This document shows positions 34,166-56,963 of a DNA stretch of 64,000 nt, piece by piece; the first letter of the stretch is position 1; each line of letters starts with the position of its first letter. A program made the position numbers and the translations under genes. The notes below the pieces were generated by a model, which saw nothing but the letters and a program-made list of their open reading frames with translations, was not told the origin of the DNA and did no database searches. This DNA is from Polytrichum commune (Eukaryota; Streptophyta; Polytrichopsida; Polytrichales; Polytrichaceae), in contig OX485804.1 of the NCBI GenBank assembly GCA_950295325.1, positions 26,040,001 to 26,104,000 on the forward strand, in the 5' to 3' direction.

Positions 34166-34754
34166 CCGTACCAACCACCCCCTCCCCTCCCCTCCCCTCC
34201 TAGCACACCAATAGGGAACACCTCAAGAGTGCTTGTCCCATCATAGCCTTGGTCAAAAAACCATTTGAAGTTCACATATGAGATGGCGGCTATGATGAAG
34301 GTCAAAGCGTCTCTCATTCACGCCAGCCCAAGAAGGCCAGAGCTCTCTCTCTTTCTAACATATATATATATATATATATAAGAGGTATACTTAAGTTATA
34401 GAACTTTATATAATCTTGAAGTGATTTTAACACATATATAGCCACTTTAATTAAGTTATAGAACTCAAAATATATGTCTCTTATATAGCTAATATATTTT
34501 ATAAGACATATGTATAGATATAGAGATATATATGTATATAATCATATGTAACACATACATAAATTAAATATATTTGTGAACATATATATGTCAACATATA
34601 TATGTCAACTTATATAACATTTGGGCCACTTCGTATAAATTATGGAACTTGAGATATATGATTTTCCTATAAAATATAGCATGTCTATTATATCTTAAAA
34701 AAAATTAATGTATATAACATATACAATTGGAATATATATATAACACTTAGGGTT
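34166..34754. repeat. AT-rich low-complexity region
   Basis: Contains TA microsatellite runs (about 34361-34382) and loosely repeated phrases such as TTAAGTTATAGAACT (twice) and CATATATATGTCAAC (twice). CCCTCCCCTCCCCTCC at about 34183-34200 is a short pyrimidine tract. Confidence 0.7.
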
Positions 34755-47131: not shown

Positions 47132-48430
47132 TCTACTCTGTAGGATAACTTTAGTTGTCTGTCCTGCGAATACTGCATCGTTAAGTTAATTGAGAACAAA
47201 AGTGTTTCGGCAGAAAAGTATATTATGCAATAGATATGCAAATTCACTAAGCTGAATTTCTCTTCATATTTGTAAAGCTTAGCACTAACTAATTGAGTGT
47301 TACACACGTACATCACTTGGTTTTCAACTTCTGCTTCTGACAAATCCTCATTTGGTTTCATTTTGCCACCAACTTGTACATTTTCTTAGCAATGATGCGC
47401 CCGTTGTCTGTGTTTCTTCATGTCTATGTATGTCGACATGTGAAATCAGGTTGACCCATATTAATTTGTTGACATTTCAGACTATTTGAACATATTATCG
47501 CAGGATTAATATACATAAAAAAAAAACCATTAACTGGGGTTGAATAAGCAAAGTTGTAAGTTGTTATGACCTCGTTTGACCTAAGGTAACTTGCATGGAT
47601 AAAAAGCCAACTTATTCGTGAGTCAACCTAATTGCACCTATTAGAATAATGAATGAATACGATTGTCCGTTTGCATGTCAACAAATACTATATATGTCTA
47701 TTACACCCATGTCAACAACATCAATGGATGCATTAGGAACATTAATGGTTGAACAATTAGAGACCCTTAAACTTGTGGCCAAGACTCTGACATGTTTAAT
47801 AGGGTTGTAATGTGGCATGTTCATGTGACAATACTCTAACAATGGCAACCCTCAATCAACCCATAACACTTTTTGCTGTCAAAAATTGTGCCATAGATGA
47901 TAGAATAAGAGTTCATACAGTAACGGACAAGATTGTTTGTAACAAATTGTGTTATAACATATTATCTTTGCTATGATCTTTCAAGTTCATCTTCAAATGT
48001 TTCGGGAAGAGTGCATGGATACAAGAATTGTTTCAATTAACAAATTGAATGGTAGAAAGAGGTGTTGCATACAAGCTAGCTACCCCACAACTGTTTAGAC
48101 ACCTCAAATTAGAGTCTTTGCAAGCATGCATTTTCCCAGAGATGTTTGAAAGGTAAACATCATATATTCTAGAACCTATGGCTTACGACACCATTTCTCT
48201 ATGTGAATATTTCCTTTGGTGGTAAAATTATTTTTACATAGAAATCATCTGCTACATAACAAATCGTCACTCATCTTGTAGCTCTCTATTCAATAATCTC
48301 CACTTGGCATGCCATGCGTTCAATTGAAACCTAAGCTCGACACTTCAACAATAGCCTCCTACTCACTCTCCTCCTTGCATATGTGTTCCTCACATCAAGT
48401 CCTGACAATACCCAGTTCCCAGTCTTGTAG
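47132..48430. other. No gene recognised
   Basis: Anonymous AT-rich sequence. No motif seen. Confidence 0.5.
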
Positions 48431-50058
48431 GGGGACGCTAAAGTACCCCCATTGAACTTATAGGGGAGGCAGATTCGGGCAAGGGCAGCCGCCCGCCCAA
48501 AAATTTTAAATATTTTGGATCCGACCGAAAATTGTTGCCCGCCCGCCCGACTTCAAAAAAATCATTGCCCTTGCATTCTTGAAGACCACTTATCCACAAA
48601 TTCCATATTGAGTGCATTTCACCTTCAAGGTACAAAATCCAATATATATGTTCACTTCCATTGAGTAAATAAGCGATTGACTGGGATTTCATTTTCAAAA
48701 TGTAATCGCCAATAAAGCATGTAAATAACTAGGAAGTCAAAAAAATTATAAAACCCTCATTAGCACGGAGGTTATGATTTTTGTGACTTGCCATTGCAAG
48801 GGTCTTTGTCATTCTAAAATGGAACTAAAATTAGTGGTTTTATTTTTAGTATGTTCAGTATTATAATCTTTTAGTTAATACCTTCTACTTTCACAAAGTT
48901 TCAAACACATTTAAACTAATTAAGTGTGATTCAATGTAATTAAGTCTAGTTAATTCTAGCATAACACATTTGCAAATATGCATTGAGCGCATAACACATT
49001 TTTCAAAATGTGGATCTAGTGCATGACACATTCGTAGACCTGGATGTAGTGCATAGCACATTTGTAAATTTGAATATGATGTATGACACATTCACAAATC
49101 TGGATCACGTGCATGACACATTTGAATATGACGCATGACACATTTGTAAATATGAATATGATGCATGACATATTTGTAAATCTGGATCTTATGCATGACA
49201 CATTTGTAAATATGAATATGACGCATGACATATTTATAAATATGGATTTGGTGCATGACACGTTTGTAAATTTGGATCTAGTGCATGACACATTCGTAAA
49301 TATGAATCTAACAGATGACACATTTGTAAATTTGGATTTAGTGCATAACACATTTGTAGATTTGGGACTGTCATATAACACATTCCAGAGATTTTGATGC
49401 ATAACACATCCGAAGAAACAGTTTGCATAACACATTAGCAAATGTGGTTGAAAACCGATGGGAAGGAGATAGGGAACGTTCCCAATGCTCGGAAGAGGGT
49501 CCATGGCTCGAAGGATGACTAACGTCGTTGGAGCTAACTCCGTCCAAGGTTACATTGAATCACACTTAATTAGTTTAAATGTGTATGGAAACTTTGTGAA
49601 AGTAGAAGGTATTAACTTAAAGATTATAATACTGAACATACTAAAAATAAAACCACTAATTTTAGTTCCATTTTAGAATGACAAAGACCCTTGCAATGGC
49701 AAGTCACAAAAATCATAACCTCTGTGCTAATGAGGGTTTTATAAAAATTTGACTTCCTAGTTATTTACATGCTTTATTGGCGATTACATTTTGAAAATGA
49801 AATCCCAGTCAATCGCTTATTTACTCAATGGAAGTGAACATATATATTGGATTTTGGACCTTGAAGGTGAAATGCACTCAATATGGAATTTGTGGATAAG
49901 TGGTCTTCAAGAATGCAAGGGCAATGATTTTTTTGAAGTCGGGCGGGCGGGCAGAAGTTTTCGGTCGGATCCAGAATATTTAAAAATTTTGGGCGGGCAG
50001 CTGCCCCTGCCCGAATCTGCCTCCCCTATAAGTTCGATGGGGGCACTTTAGCATCCCC
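48431..50058. mobile_element. Foldback-type element: 0.51-kb inverted arms around a tandem-repeat core
   Basis: The left arm (48431 to about 48941) and right arm (about 49548 to 50058) are inverted copies about 95% alike, each beginning GGGGAYGCTAAAGTRCCCCC. Between them lies the 30-bp tandem array at 48960-49440. The 86-codon frame found in mirror image in both arms (48438-48698 minus, 49791-50051 plus, MKMKSQSIAYLLNGSEHIYW) runs outwards to the tips and has no known domain. Long arms with repetitive interiors are typical of foldback elements, some of which are Mutator relatives. No clear target duplication was found. A diverged arm lies at 22590-22890. Confidence 0.85.
48960..49440. repeat. 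30-bp tandem repeat array inside the foldback element
   Basis: About 16 degenerate copies of GCATGACACATTTGTAAATA plus TGAATATGAT. The unit is ten codons long, so open frames appear on both strands with decapeptide repeats (plus strand MHDTFVNMNM; minus strand TNVSCTRSKF). These frames reflect the period and are probably not genes. Confidence 0.9.
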
Positions 50059-50442
50059 TGTTTTTATATACTATAATTTTTAAAATTATGAGATGTTATT
50101 AGTAATTTCTAAAATTTCTAAAATTAATCTTTTTATATTAAACAATGTAGTTTAATTAAAATATTGTTTATTTATCAATAAATAATATTTTATTTTAATA
50201 GTTTGATGAGCAGTTAGCCTTATAATCCCGATCTTGTAATAATATAATTTTTTTCATTTAATACATTCATAATTAAATAAATTTTATTGAAAAATTTAAA
50301 TATATTGATAAAATAGTATTTAATTACCTTGATTATTAAATATTTATTATAATATTTATATAAAGCCTTTAGGTTAGGCTATTCTAACCCTTCATTTGGT
50401 ATAGACATGTTAGGATTAATTCAAAAAACAATCATTTGCGCA
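50059..50442. other. Very AT-rich flank, probably decayed plastid DNA
   Basis: Continuous with the clpP remnant. The clpP third exon was expected here; a short minus-strand match to MIHQP-like sequence at about 50420-50440 is too weak to claim. Confidence 0.35.
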
Positions 50443-50730
50443 AAACGTAGGGTAGCGCAAAACATTTAGTAATTCTTTCGCTAGTTAAAGTAAAATATCC
50501 CATTGAAGCAGTTAATTCCATACAAATTGCATGTACATCGGGAACTACAAATTACATAGCATCATTAACATATATTCATGGTAAAACTGCTCCACCAAGA
50601 GAGTTAATATATAAATAAATATTTTTATTTTCATCTTCTACATTTAAGTACATTATAATACTAATGACTTTATTTGCAATGTCATCGTCTACATGTTGAC
50701 TTAAGAAAAAAAAATTTGATAAAGTCGGTT
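50443..50730 (-). pseudogene. clpP: clpP exon 2 remnant in nuclear-inserted plastid DNA
   Basis: Plastid ClpP is the proteolytic subunit of the Clp protease. The minus strand reads NRLYQIFFF, shifts one base within a T run, then reads [42 protein letters not shown] and [20 protein letters not shown], aligning throughout with clpP exon 2. The block is 288 bp against the usual 292-294. In-frame TGA and TAA codons and the frameshift make it non-functional. The catalytic-serine context MGLAASMGS reads MELTASMGY. Confidence 0.85.
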
Positions 50731-50754
50731 AAGTGGATTAGATTTTTTTTTTTA

Positions 50755-50788
50755 AAACCGTACAAGCATTTTTAAAAGCAAATGGCTC
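50755..50788 (-). ncRNA. Group II intron domain V (clpP intron 1 remnant)
   Basis: On the minus strand GAGCCATTTGC, a loop TTTTAAAA region, then GCTTGTACGGTTTT forms the domain V helix. GAGCC pairs with GGTTT-type sequence, as in the conserved GAGCCGTATG...GTACGGTTC form. It lies about 25 bp before clpP exon 2, exactly where domain V of the first clpP intron belongs. It is a fossil in the nucleus. Confidence 0.75.
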
Positions 50789-51229
50789 GAGTAGTTGTAA
50801 ACAAATTTACCTCTTCTTATTTTCTAATAAGTTTAAATTTTTTATTCTTTATAAATTTTAACTACTTTTAGTTCAATTTTTTATTATTTATTGAATGGTC
50901 TATTATTTAATAATATATTTTGTAAATTTCGTTTTTTAAAAACATAACTATTTAAAACATAACAATTTATGATATAAAAATAATTTTATTCATTTAAAAA
51001 CAAGTTTTTAATTATATCTTTGGGTTTATGCTCTACTTCACGGAAAAAAAATCCAATTTTTACTTACACATATAGAATAAGTAGATTTAATGATCTTGCA
51101 GACAAAAGAGAAATTCTGGGGCTCGTAACAATTTTATGAGCGTTCAATGTTAATGTTTGTGGGATGGTTCATATTTTTGTTGATGTTGATAGGAGTGTGT
51201 GTGAGCAAGCCCTTTATCAAAGCCACAAT
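50789..51229 (-). other. Probable clpP intron 1 remainder, AT-rich
   Basis: AT-rich sequence upstream (minus sense) of domain V. No exon 1 could be placed with confidence. Confidence 0.4.
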
Positions 51230-51810
51230 GGTATTTGCATGTGGTTGCAACCCTCTGAGCTTAGATGACCCGACCCTGAGTTCATGAGATGCAGACTTCG
51301 TTGCCTACAAGCCTGCAGTTCATAGTGCATTCAAGCAGCTCATGGTAGATGACGTTGATGCACAGCAGAGGGCCCTGGAGTCGGTGACAGTGCAAGACTG
51401 CCCGGAGTTGGCATGGGCTATTATGAAGTTAAAACAAGGGCCTGGAGTTGTGGAGGCCATAGAGGGACTAAGGAGGAGACATGTGTACAAGTGGTTGTTC
51501 TTGGATTGTCCGATGTCATTTATAAATGTTGATGTCTTTGTTTCATTTATCCGCGGAAGAAACCCAATGCTTACAGATCTCGTGGTCTGGTTGAAATGCA
51601 AATTCGATTCGAGGCATGCTTGCGAGGCCTGCCCATCGGTGAGCTCCAAAACTTCTTCTTCTTCATCATGGACTCTCGGTACTTTCATTATAGAGCGATA
51701 CACATTATTGGGAAGCCCGAATGGTCCCAGGATAAGTTGTCAACATCAACGACATGTTTCAACACTCTGTACATGCCACTGTATTTTTTAGATATTATTA
51801 TTATATGATA
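51230..51810 (+). other. GC-richer block with unidentified open frame
   Basis: The plus strand is open from about 51310 to 51791 (ADFVAYKPAVHSAFKQLMVD, then DVDAQQRALESVTVQDCPEL). A second frame takes over near 51596 (LRGLPIGELQNFFFFIMDSR), as if one protein had suffered a frameshift. Base composition differs sharply from the plastid-derived flanks, so it looks inserted. I do not recognise the protein. A minus-strand frame of 127 codons overlaps it. Confidence 0.35.
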
Positions 51811-52072
51811 TTAATATTATTATATCATAGATATTTTATCTATCAAAATATTGAATATATTGAATATTAAATGGGACCAATCTCGGCATTGATATCGGAA
51901 ATATATAAATGCTAAATTATTTCGGCTTGTCTTTATTAGTTTTCTTAAATTTTAATATTTTTACTTGAAAATAAAAGCTTTTAGAATTTAGAATTTGTAT
52001 TTTATAGTATATTTCTTAATCAATGCAAAAAATTTACTAATTTCTACTTCTCTTTGAAAAAGGGGTATTTCC
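51811..52072. other. AT-rich spacer upstream of psbB remnant
   Basis: Corresponds in position to the clpP-psbB spacer of plastid genomes. Nothing further could be assigned. Confidence 0.4.
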
Positions 52073-52568
52073 ATAGGTTTACCTTGATATTGTGTTTATG
52101 TTATTGTATTAATTAATCATCATCGCTTAATTGTTGTACATTGAATGCATAAAGCTTTAGTTTCTGATTGGGCTGGTGATTTGGCGTTATATCAGTTAGT
52201 TGGTTTTTTATCCCTCTAATCATGTTCTTGATCCTATATGGAGACAAGGTTTGTATGTTATACCTTTTATGACTTGTTTGATAATAACATAATTTTGGGG
52301 AGGTTGGAGTATTACCGGATAAACGGAAACTAATGCACGTCTTTGGAGTTACGAAGACGTAACTACAATACATATTGTGTTATCAAGTTGCTTTACCTTC
52401 AGTCAAGCTACTTTTCCTATTTTTTTCTCCTTTGGACATATTTGGCATGGTGCTAGAACATTATTTAAAGATGTTTTTGCTAGTATTGATTCGGACTTAG
52501 ACACTCAACTTGAATTTGGAGCATTTCAAAAATTAGGAGATTTTACTACTAAAAGACAAATAGTTTAA
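52073..52568 (+). pseudogene. psbB: psbB (CP47) pseudogene with about 1 kb internal deletion
   Basis: CP47 is the photosystem II core antenna protein. The N-terminal part is readable across frame changes: IGLP*YCVYVIVLINHHRLI (start ATG now ATA, W now TGA), [34 protein letters not shown] and FWGGWSITG. After [16 protein letters not shown] it jumps directly to the C-terminus: [46 protein letters not shown] and RQIV then stop. About 335 of 508 codons are missing, including most chlorophyll-binding loops. Order and strand match plastid psbB relative to clpP and psbT. Confidence 0.9.
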
Positions 52569-52722
52569 ATTTTGTATTAAATTGTTTATTTCCTATTTTT
52601 AAAATAAAAATATGTTTACATATATTATTCTAAATTTCATATATATAATCATAGACTCCTTGAATGAATATATTTTTCAATTAATACAAAAGCCATCTCC
52701 ATACTCACTTACAATCAAATAT

Positions 52723-52837
52723 TTGGAAGCATTAATTTATACATTTCTATTGGTAGGTACTATAGGAATTTTTATTTTTATTTTTTTCAAGAACCACCTA
52801 AAATTCAAACTAAAAGAAAAAAAAATAACAAATAACA
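52723..52837 (+). pseudogene. psbT: psbT remnant
   Basis: A small photosystem II subunit with one membrane helix. Reads LEALIYTFLLVGTIGIFIFI then FF, matching MEALVYTFLLV...FF with the ATG changed to TTG. The following REPPK motif is broken by a one- or two-base change: the next frame gives PPKIQTKRK. It lies about 155 bp after the psbB stop, as in plastid genomes. Confidence 0.85.
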
Positions 52838-52872
52838 AATTTGCACCTTCCCTAAAAAATGGAAGGTCGTTA

Positions 52873-53013
52873 CTAATGAATAAAGTCTTGATGTTCTTCA
52901 AAAGGATCTCTAAGTTCTTTAGAGGGTTGTCCAAAACCTATATAAACAACATAACCAGTAAAACTTATAAGTAAACAATATATAAATATAGCGGCAAAAG
53001 TTGTAGTTTTTAT
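52873..53013 (-). pseudogene. psbN: psbN remnant, frame still open
   Basis: A photosystem II assembly factor with one membrane helix, encoded opposite psbB/psbT as usual. The minus strand reads [20 protein letters not shown] then [20 protein letters not shown] and HQD, 43 residues as expected. It then runs three codons (FIH) past the normal end to TAG. Only the start codon (ATA for ATG) and the stop are altered, with no internal stop or frameshift, unlike its neighbours. Confidence 0.85.
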
Positions 53014-53112
53014 TTTTTAATCTTTCTAAAAGAATGGTTTGGTTTTAATTAATATAATAGTACACAAAGTTCATAAATATCAACTACCAACTAATCTAAT
53101 AATATTTTATTT

Positions 53113-53180
53113 ATGACTACACTAATTATTGATAATACTCCTAATACTAAAGGAAGACCTACCACATGCATAATTCATAA
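53113..53180 (+). pseudogene. psbH: Probable psbH 5' fragment
   Basis: ATG at 53113 begins MTTLIIDNTPNTKGRPTT, resembling psbH N-termini of the MATQxIDNTSKT type. It sits about 100 bp from the psbN start on the plus strand, the position of psbH in plastid genomes. Similarity ends near 53170, where non-plastid sequence begins. Confidence 0.5.
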
Positions 53181-53189
53181 TGTTCTCTT

Positions 53190-53780
53190 ACTACTGTGTG
53201 TCTTACTTATTGTTAAGGGTATGGTTGAGAGCTTTAGGACACCTGCCCAATAATCACCTGGAGTCTCAAAGTGGATTGCGTACAGACGATAATAATTTCA
53301 AGTTTCATTCCGGTTCCTATATGCAACCAAATAACCGGTATCCCATTCCGAGCCCCCCATTCGATTTGGCTTGCCTCTAGGTTTGCACCTGATTCATCAC
53401 AACCTTCATTGACGTCTTGTCTTTGGCTATGCTTGTTAATATGGTGCCCAGTTTGTCGCACAGTGCGTCCACGGACCGTAATGTGACATCATCATCGGGA
53501 AAATATTTTTCAAAGATGTCCCACACCCACCAATCAAGTTGTGCTATGGCATTGAATGCAACCACAATGAATTTGGTGTTGTACGCAATCATTGATGGGC
53601 TCTCGCAGAGAGCAACAACCTCGTTAGTGATCATCAGTGGCATCAGCCCCCTGCAGCCTCTACGGCGCGGGGCAAGTGTTGCTAATGTGTGTCCCTCCAC
53701 GATGTCCTCACAACTTAACCCAAGCTCAGCATCCAACGCTTTCCAAAATCGTTTTCCTGAAGGCCACAACTATTAAGGTT
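53190..53780 (-). other. GC-richer block with unidentified 130-codon frame
   Basis: The minus-strand frame at 53769-53377 reads FWKALDAELGLSCEDIVEGH ... AIAQLDWWVWDIFEKYFPDD and SVDALCDKLGTILTSIAKDK, and looks protein-like (mixed composition, amphipathic stretches). A continuation in another frame (53461-53234) is open too. It abuts the truncated psbH directly. The family is not recognised. A retroelement or captured nuclear gene fragment is possible. Confidence 0.35.
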
Positions 53781-56629
53781 ATCATCGTTTGAGAATGTTA
53801 AGAATGTCATATTTGTGATATTATTAGATAAGCCGCTTCACAAAGTGACCTAGTTGTTGTTGTTGCATCTAATCAAGATTGGTATATTTGAATTTAGCAT
53901 ATGATATTTTAAAACTATCAAACTAGCTTGGATGATGTTTAAATTTATTTTGAACATATCTTTTCATCATATTAATATTCCTTATTAATTATATGATTTA
54001 AATAATTATTTTTTATATTTGAAAAATCTTAAATTTTAAAATATATTAAAATATTAATGGCTTTAGATTTCTAGTCCAAAATACATTCTTGGTACAATTT
54101 AAAGTTGTTTTATTATAATATATCTTCCGGTTTCAAATTTTAATTATCCATAAAAATTTATTATTTTGATGAAGGAATATGAAATAGAATTGACCATAAA
54201 TTTTTTTTAATAAAATATTTTCATTTTATTTGTTCTTCAAGGCTCATAAATTTTTAAATCTTATGTATTTCATGAGTTTTTGTAGTTATAAGTTGCTTTC
54301 ATTGAATTGATAGTTTTTTATTATTATTTGTTAAAATCTCTTTGTTGTAGGTTGATACAAACAATCCTTCACAACATTCAACTTTCAAATATTATGATGC
54401 ATTGGAGTTGAATATTTAGTCAACCTCTTTTTATGTGAAAGCAAATGTAATTTTTGACGAATCATTTGTTTGATTCAAAATCAATGATTGATAATCTTCA
54501 GTTTCAAACGTATTTAGAATCAAGGTTTTTAATTCTTTTATGATGTTTGCTCTCAATGTCTTTGATTCAATCTACTTTTATATTAGATTTTTTCAAATTA
54601 GAGAAAATATTTATTCATGGATATAGACTTGAAAAAGTAATAGTTTATGTCCCATTAAAAGAAATCATATAAAAAATAAGATCTCACCTTATAATTAATA
54701 AATTCTTCATCATATAGATTAGGAAAAAAATATGTGCAAATTTTGATAATATAAAATATAAAATTAAATCAATTAAATTTATTTAAATCAATAAGAAACC
54801 TTCAAAACTTATAAACAAGATGTTCTTGGTTTGGAATGGAATTCATTGTTTGCAAGTGTCAAGATCAATTGTTGATGAGGTTCATTGTTTAGATGTAAAT
54901 TGATACATTTCAATTGAGATCATTTAGTTGAATTCACCATTTAATATTCAGTACAATGTATGACCTCAACAAATCATTTTTTTCTATGTATTTTTTATAT
55001 TTATTGATGTGTTCTTTATTCATATTATGACCTCTTTATTTTATTGCTTATTGATTTTGTATGGGTTATTTTTGTCATATTGTACATTCACATGTAAAGA
55101 CCAATTTCATTCATCAATTGTATCGGATGTAAGCTATTGAAATCTTCCCTATTGAGAACCTCAAAAACTTTTGACACCTGAACAATATAAAACATCAATC
55201 ACAAAAATAATTGCAACAGCATACATGCTTACACATGATCTTTTTTTATTACTTATATAATATCAGTTTCATACCAAACCTTAATTTTTTTCACAAGTTT
55301 CATATTATTATGTTTGTCTTAACATGAGATTGTTGACACATGATATTTGGCTAAAAACAATTATTTGAATTTGTTCCAGAACATGGCATGTATATTGAAG
55401 GGATCGTTGGGTTTATGAATATAATAATGGATGCAAAACGAGTTAGTTTGCTTGACACTTAGTGTGGAAGGGAGAAAGCCCACTCACCTCGCCCCCCCCC
55501 CCCCGCCTCCAAGAATTAAACCTATAAAGCAAACACAATATGTATCCCTGCCACTTCACTTCGTATATATGTGATGCATTCATACCAAGGATACTACAAC
55601 TTATTTCATCACAAGTCTAAAGTCTAAATGCCCAAGAAGCCCAAATGTGTCAATTGCACGTGTTTTTGGAAGGTTTATGGAACTTAATTTTAATCTAATT
55701 TTTTGAAGTTTTAGTGTGTTGGGTGCTATACAAATTGAAATGCATTGGTCTAGAATTTACCAAATCATAGGAGATTTGAGGCCTATATAATTTTTAAAGT
55801 TTCATCCGTTTCGTGTTTGTAGGTGAACTAGGCCAGTTGGAGAAGTTTGCACATGACATGTCAGTCACTCCCCTAAGGGCATGTGGCTTTGCTTGGGAGT
55901 TGCCCACTATCTACCCATGGACATGTGCCTATCTGGGCCCAACTTGAACCAAGACAATGGCAATGTTAATGTGGGGTTTAAAGGCTAGCCCTCTCACCAC
56001 CCTCCTCCAATAGTGAACGCTCCCCGAATTTTAAGCCTTGTACACCTGACAACTACTCATGAGGCTTTTGTTGACAAAGGAGCTCTCCTTGAACAACAAC
56101 CATAGCCATGCTTCCTTCAACAATAGTTGCATCTAATTTCGTGAGCAAAACGGGAATTAAATTTGCATTCAAGATGTGAATCAATTGACAACAACAACCC
56201 ATTACTTGGGCGGACCCAACTCCTTTGCACTTCTTTTAGCACACCCCCCCCCCCCCGAGGTGCCCAAGGTGCCCGTTCATGACCCCAGATAAAAAAATCA
56301 CAATTTTAGGCAACTTTGGCTATATCTGCTCAATATTGGATTTTGGTAGACCTCGTTCTTGCAAATTTTTTAATTACTCTCTTAATATCTACCATATGGA
56401 TTTTCAATTTAATGCTTTGAGTACATGTTCTAAAATATTCGGTCTATCTCCCGCAATGCCGATATGCATTACAAGGGTTCTCCAAAATTAAGAATGTCAT
56501 CTTTTGGGAAGGTGAAAGTCTCATGTGGTAGAGATCTACAATAGATTTTCAAAGATATAAACCTAATTACATTGAAGCATTTATGGTATACAATTGGATA
56601 AGAAAACAAAAAGTTCACATTCTAGGACA
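53781..56629. other. Very AT-rich anonymous region with poly-C tracts
   Basis: No further plastid gene (petB, petD) was recognised after psbH. Runs of 12-15 C occur at about 55488-55503 and 56244-56258. Around 54350, TTGTAG precedes an open stretch VDTNNPSQHSTFKYYDALEL, an isolated exon-like piece with no partner. Confidence 0.45.
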
Positions 56630-56850
56630 TCGTGGCACTCCCAAGAGGTGGACTTTTGATTAAAAACAGTGGGCCTTTCATAAAAAAAAACCCCTATATA
56701 TGAGAAGTTTATAGATAAATAAATAAATTGTCTACGTGCTAACGACAACCTAGAATATGGATTCATGTATTTATACTAAACTTTTCGATATATTGTAGTA
56801 AATGGCTCTACTACATATACATAATATAAAATTTGAACTAAATAAGAAAT
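56630..56850 (+). repeat. Dispersed repeat, pair of 34900-35130
   Basis: Shared phrases: GAGGTGGACTTTTGATTA, CCCCTATATATGAGAAGTTT, CTAACGACAACCTAGAA and ACTAAACTTTTCGATATATTG. Confidence 0.55.
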
Positions 56851-56963
56851 ACACCTTCTTACTCTAGATATATTTGAGCAGTAGCAATTTGGCATAGAGT
56901 TTTAATAAGACTAAAGTGACAACAATGATAGCAAGTTGTACGAGATATAATTTTCCACATGTA

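Follow-up and report, generated by a model that had tools for sequence, protein, structure and literature searches.

A decayed plastid DNA segment with shuffled HECT-family gene fragments in a nuclear contig of the moss Polytrichum commune

Plastid DNA that has become part of a plant nuclear chromosome (nuclear plastid DNA, NUPT) is exposed to several known fates, which in a review of the subject (PMC7037861) include decay biased towards C>T, deletion, rearrangement and the uptake of non-organellar DNA. A bias from C/G to T/A was reported for NUPTs of 17 species and ascribed there to methylation and deamination (PMC6376042). The segment described here resembles these plant NUPTs: it is collinear with plastid DNA, lies in a nuclear chromosome and shows the fates listed in the review (PMC7037861). 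It does not differ from them in kind, but its host is a moss, and shuffled pieces of a HECT-family gene lie in the middle of the block. Among the papers listed in a literature search, no title concerned NUPTs of bryophytes, which is not proof that no such paper exists. The block is an ordinary but well-preserved NUPT of a known process, and it leaves knowledge of organelle-to-nucleus transfer unchanged. Its interest is that of a clear old case of plastid DNA wear in the nucleus of a moss, where each change can be read against the parent plastome of the same assembly. It displays both the methylation-type decay described for the NUPTs of 17 plant species (PMC6376042) and what look like microhomology scars.

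The plastid block and its native counterpart

The window analysed is a stretch of 64,000 nucleotides (C2:26040001-26104000) on contig C2, which is 70,291,532 bp long and was taken as nuclear; the assembly comprises 407.8 Mb in 64 contigs. We compared the whole window by blastn with contig C8, the plastid genome of the same assembly. Positions 50061-53158 proved to be decayed plastid DNA, made up of five plus/plus pieces collinear with C8 (Table 1). The identity of the pieces to C8 is 82-95%, and the three largest score 908 (the best), 817 and 747 bits. Even the smallest piece, of 39 bp, reaches 62.6 bits, against a maximum of 52.7 bits in 100 dinucleotide shuffles of the block. The divergence from C8 amounts to 298 of 2372 aligned bases (12.56%), and the pieces contain 16 deletions and 4 insertions relative to C8. 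Order and orientation are those of C8: rps12-rpl20 spacer, clpP, psbB, psbT, psbN, psbH. An initial annotation, made from the letters of the window, had described an old plastid insertion preserving the order clpP-psbB-psbT-psbN-psbH. The five collinear pieces and their 12.6% divergence bear this out, and its gene list was right, the native counterparts on C8 matching the expected Pfam or PDB families. The limits that it gave, 50443-53180, have to be replaced by true ends at 50061 and 53158, with a non-plastid interval inside.

Table 1. Features of the plastid block and its flanks. Positions are those of the window; positions in the HECT reference copy (C4 copy) count within C4:2984500-2988500.
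Feature	Position	Strand	Match or basis
Foldback element in high copy, with long inverted arms and termini GGGGGACRYTAAAGT	48430-50059	.	adjoins left end of plastid block
Plastid piece, from the rpl20/rps12 exon 1 spacer	50061-50254	+	82% to C8:111366-111568
Plastid piece, rpl20/rps12 exon 1 spacer, after ~40-bp loss	50258-50296	+	95% to C8:111609-111647
clpP piece (intron 2 part, exon 2, intron 1 part)	50298-51097	-	83% to C8:112585-113376
clpP exon 2	about 50444-50740	-	native exon 2 matches ClpP
Group II domain V region, clpP intron 1	about 50757-50791	-	alignment, by eye
HECT-family fragment a, out of its place between b and c	51093-51141	+	88% to C4 copy 1969-2017
HECT-family fragment b	51140-51513	+	85% to C4 copy 1506-1879
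HECT-family fragment c	51510-51784	+	79% to C4 copy 2118-2394
Plastid piece, psbB start (codons 1-104) with its upstream region	51780-52389	+	88% to C8:113798-114407
psbB codons 1-104	52073-52386	+	
Plastid piece, psbB end to psbH start	52387-53158	+	85% to C8:115437-116247
Last ~60 psbB codons, of 508	up to 52568	+	
psbT	from 52723	+	alignment to C8
psbN	52882-53013	-	alignment to C8
psbH, first ~15 codons	53113-53158	+	alignment to C8
5' part of HECT-family copy, opposite in orientation to fragments a-c	53204-53771	-	78% to C4 copy 833-268

The native plastid genome, C8, spans 146,561 bp, including 32,500 N. Its psbB is unbroken (508 aa), as is a further member of the psbB family, by its length psbC. 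Matches in Pfam or PDB back psbB, clpP, psbT, psbN, psbH, rpl20 and rpoA on C8, and rps12 exon 1 is weakly matched (20.9 bits, with the Pfam cut-off at 22.3). No ccsA-type match was found on C8; liverworts keep ccsA. The gene rpoA has been reported to occur in Polytrichopsida and to be missing from Tetraphis and the arthrodontous mosses (PMC4035505). With 9061 bp shared by its two ends, C8 forms a circle of ~126,254 bp, compared with 126,323 bp for the published Polytrichum commune plastome (PMC8128170). The single-copy stretch between its 394-bp inverted ends measures 18,874 bp and does not match the small single-copy region of 16,717 bp given in that publication, whose parts do not sum to its total; the remainder would be 18,893 bp (PMC8128170).

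We consider it nearly certain that the block is an old NUPT derived from the plant's own plastid. Its five plus/plus pieces follow the order of the plastid genome of the same organism, and that genome exists separately and intact. It is flanked on one side by a foldback element of high copy number and on the other by part of a HECT-family copy, and both recur on other large contigs, which places the block in the nucleus. The block has also decayed without purifying selection and with an excess of C>T and G>A changes, although a neutral simulation fits it imperfectly.

Decay of the genes and base composition

The start codons of psbB and psbN have changed from ATG to ATA and that of psbT from ATG to TTG, as had been read initially; psbH departs from that reading in keeping its ATG, and is cut off at about codon 15. 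Within psbB codons 1-104 there are four stops (W5, L24, K73, E83) and a 1-bp insertion (+1). The frame of clpP exon 2 likewise holds four stops, two inside the exon (G27 and Q35) and two past its likely end. Change of tryptophan to stop, which had been presented as a general mark of decay, occurs once, at psbB W5, and the other stops within psbB and clpP exon 2 derive from L24, K73, E83, G27 and Q35. The psbB remnants comprise the last ~60 codons, as noted from the start, and the first 104 rather than ~110 codons. The group II domain V noted initially lies beside clpP exon 2. It is discernible by eye in the alignment, but none of the Rfam families attains its gathering score in the 64-kb window.

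Changes from GC to AT affect 131 of 623 sites, compared with 66 of 1749 for AT to GC. By context, C>T changes are found at 18 of 66 CG, 18 of 84 CHG and 59 of 473 CHH sites. With this pattern, the decay looks methylation-driven. The A-T transversion distance of the block, a measure taken from PMC6376042, is 86/2372 = 0.036; the old NUPT class of that study spans 0.04-0.06, in other species and at other base compositions, and hence serves as a rough scale for the block.

The coding count covers 327 of 330 codons, three being left out for gaps. Codon positions 1, 2 and 3 carry 53, 38 and 21 changes, and the coding changes comprise 7 synonymous, 89 missense and 6 nonsense. In a working gene, or in DNA from a foreign plastid, change would be concentrated at codon position 3. 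Outside the coding count, 185 of 1388 sites (13.3%) are changed. The synonymous share is 0.069, compared with 0.138 (range 0.085-0.202) in simulations without selection. Simulation at non-coding rates predicts 51.3 changes (40-63) at position 2, where 38 are observed, and 41.7 (31-54) at position 3, where 21 are observed. The simulation without selection thus fits imperfectly, and the departure runs opposite to purifying selection on proteins. Purifying selection is unsupported because it would lift the synonymous share above the neutral value, and the decay of the block bears no sign of it. The misfit most likely arises because changes on the native side, in the plastid spacers, also enter the non-coding rates, the two branches being separable only with an outgroup plastome.

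The plastid-derived parts have a GC content of 23.4%, the native plastid stretch 27.4%, and the two 10-kb flanks 41.4% and 35.8%. The AT-richness of the block is mostly inherited, because the native stretch already stands at 27.4% GC. The initial statement that the block is far more AT-rich than its surroundings holds against the 10-kb flanks and fails for positions 54001-55200, which are equally AT-rich (22.6% GC) and gave no convincing plastid matches in blastn against C8. Seven weaker matches of the window to C8 score 44.6-49.1 bits, six of them in 53988-54794 and one at 34346-34380. We do not count them as plastid DNA, their scores being comparable to those of shuffled sequence: 100 shuffles of 53772-56871 gave a maximum of 46.4 bits, with two at or above 45 and none at 49.1, and shuffles of the block reach 52.7. 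A 58-bp match of 54739-54794 to C8 111016-111073, at 49.1 bits, just exceeds the shuffles of this flank and may yet be plastid DNA. This C8 interval is close, in the plastid, to where the left end of the block maps.

Other plastid insertions and the origin of the block

With C8 111001-116600 as query, we obtained 38 matches in the genome: four on C8, five in this block and 29 elsewhere. The latter are distributed over C1-C7 at 72-99% identity, and two of them are secondary matches inside other copies. The block is the longest strongly diverged match among those listed; the others are shorter and mostly less diverged, with two shorter ones more diverged (78% and 72%). Judged by its divergence of 12.6%, the block appears relatively old, yet it is apparently not the most diverged plastid match in the genome. 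Going by these matches, plastid DNA has repeatedly entered or been copied. The psbN-psbH region at C3:48936975-48937620 is 99% identical to the plastid, hence a recent insertion. The block comes from the same plastid source region as this copy and a NUPT at C2:59431711 (92%).

The block and the latter NUPT, C2:59431711-59432502, might go back to a single nuclear insertion, later copied within the nucleus, and not to two separate plastid transfers. We regard this as possible but rather doubtful. At 528 three-way sites, nine changes from C8 are common to both copies where 2.85 are expected (p 0.0006, or 3 of 5000 shuffles within base class). Two of the shared changes are Ser-to-Tyr replacements in clpP, at residues that read Ser and Ala in four bacterial ClpP alignments; the ancestral plastid is therefore unlikely to have had Tyr there. 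The three amino-acid changes of this comparison fall within the clpP exon. Shared changes in non-coding sequence, on the other hand, may have arisen later in the native plastid itself, and C>T is a recurrent change. In the C2:59431711 copy, too, a deletion begins in the rps12-rpl20 spacer and reaches clpP intron 2. The left breakpoints of the two deletions nearly coincide (C8 111647 and 111653, 6 bp apart), but the right ones, 112585 in the block and 112376 in the other copy, are ~209 bp apart. Changes private to one copy are far from balanced: the window copy has 59 and the other 22 (totals 68 and 31). Nor do the 4.5 kb around C2:59431711 share flanking DNA with the flanks of the block; outside the plastid parts, their sole match is to a repeat at about 26 kb in the window.

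Horizontal transfer from the plastid of a foreign plant lineage is very improbable. A distant donor would add differences mainly at third codon positions, which here have the fewest (21, against 53 and 38, in 327 codons). The 29 other matches, graded from 72 to 99% identity to C8, are as repeated uptake or copying of the plant's own plastid DNA would give. With C8 as the sole plastome compared, the source would fit the plant's own plastid lineage, and a fern or gymnosperm donor does not seem to be called for. The exons of cox1 put the mitochondrial genome on contig C9, and no match on C9 was listed for either of two plastid queries; this gives no support to a passage of plastid DNA through the mitochondrial genome, although a copy on C9 may have been lost or masked. 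Of 13 cox1-family matches, nine lie outside C9 (C3:2519443, C2:59342556 and C4:23304529 among them), several with stops, and nuclear contigs probably contain mitochondrial insertions too. Misassembly or plastid contamination is the least credible origin of all, since mis-joined plastid reads should hardly differ from C8, the plastid of the same assembly, from which the block is 12.6% diverged, and the methylation-like decay and the interruption by nuclear repeat families also argue against it.

Junctions, HECT-family fragments and the foldback element

The NUPT derived from the plant's own plastid is interrupted between clpP and psbB by a nuclear insertion that is absent from the initial reading. 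Positions 51098-51779 are not plastid DNA: three shuffled HECT-family pieces stand in place of ~421 bp of plastid sequence. Fragment c carries an intron-like stretch, as judged by eye, and ends in the HECT domain; an open reading frame at 2134-2466 of the reference copy matches the Pfam HECT family (PF00632, E 5.3e-13). Beyond the right end of the block lies the inverted 5' part of a HECT-family copy, which nine other loci in the genome match. The 45 bases between them (53159-53203) gave nothing beyond 13-bp words against the plastome.

An origin of the HECT pieces from a spliced mRNA, considered for the 238 bp missing between fragments b and c, was rejected: fragment c keeps its intron-like stretch, and fragment a, placed ahead of b, supplies part of the missing segment. 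A single inversion accounting for the plus and minus HECT parts was rejected by reasoning, as both plastid halves keep one orientation. Templated insertion would be the simpler explanation.

The 1-kb hole in psbB, recognised at the outset, is a deletion of 1032 bp (344 codons' worth) between two AGGTT words at C8 114403 and 115435. Where the HECT insert meets the psbB upstream region, both parent sequences carry TGTAT. The remaining inner joints overlap by 1-4 bp, a length that chance can give, and the outer ends were judged by eye. The scars fit microhomology-mediated end joining.

The foldback element adjoining the left end is 1.6 kb long. Its arms are 96% complementary between 48431-48741 and 49748-50058 and 99% complementary between 48746-48902 and 49588-49744, with a 30-bp tandem repeat in the middle. 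A first look at the genome gave 2918 candidates for the family, of which 40 were scored, giving 42 matches. By eye, four of five other copies have 9-bp target duplications, the fifth being ambiguous, and these duplications would suggest a MULE-like element. The two 9-bp flanks of the window copy agree at five of nine bases; the right flank, GTTTTTATA, fits plastid CTTTTTATA at eight of nine. No plastid match was seen to the left of the element.

We propose that a plastid stretch of at least ~4.9 kb (C8 ~111366-116247) was joined into the nuclear chromosome, probably at a double-strand break. Breaks in the block, later or at the same event, would have been mended by microhomology-mediated joining. 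Such repair could have removed the 1032 bp of psbB between the two AGGTT words, as well as ~937 bp where the rps12-rpl20 spacer now meets clpP intron 2, and exchanged ~421 bp upstream of psbB for shuffled HECT-gene fragments with overlaps of 1-5 bp at the joints. Either one complex repair or several events would account for this. Plastid DNA once present to the left of the block may have vanished beside the foldback element. Since then, the block would have changed as unselected and presumably methylated nuclear DNA.

A combined account, in which the block and the C2:59431711 copy are paralogous through multiplication of plastid DNA in the nucleus and the gap between clpP and psbB was mended by copying shuffled and inverted pieces of the adjacent HECT gene, is more tentative still than common descent of the two copies taken by itself. 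If true, plastid DNA in a bryophyte would have multiplied inside the nucleus besides arriving anew.

The HECT gene is part of a unit of 11.2 kb that is 98.8% identical between C4 and C3 (644-11797 of C4:2976500-2994500) and in which clear terminal repeats were not seen. Within the ~4.5 kb fetched from each, C6 and C1 carry 3.4-4.0 kb of the unit at 97-98% identity. The 11.2-kb unit looks recently dispersed.
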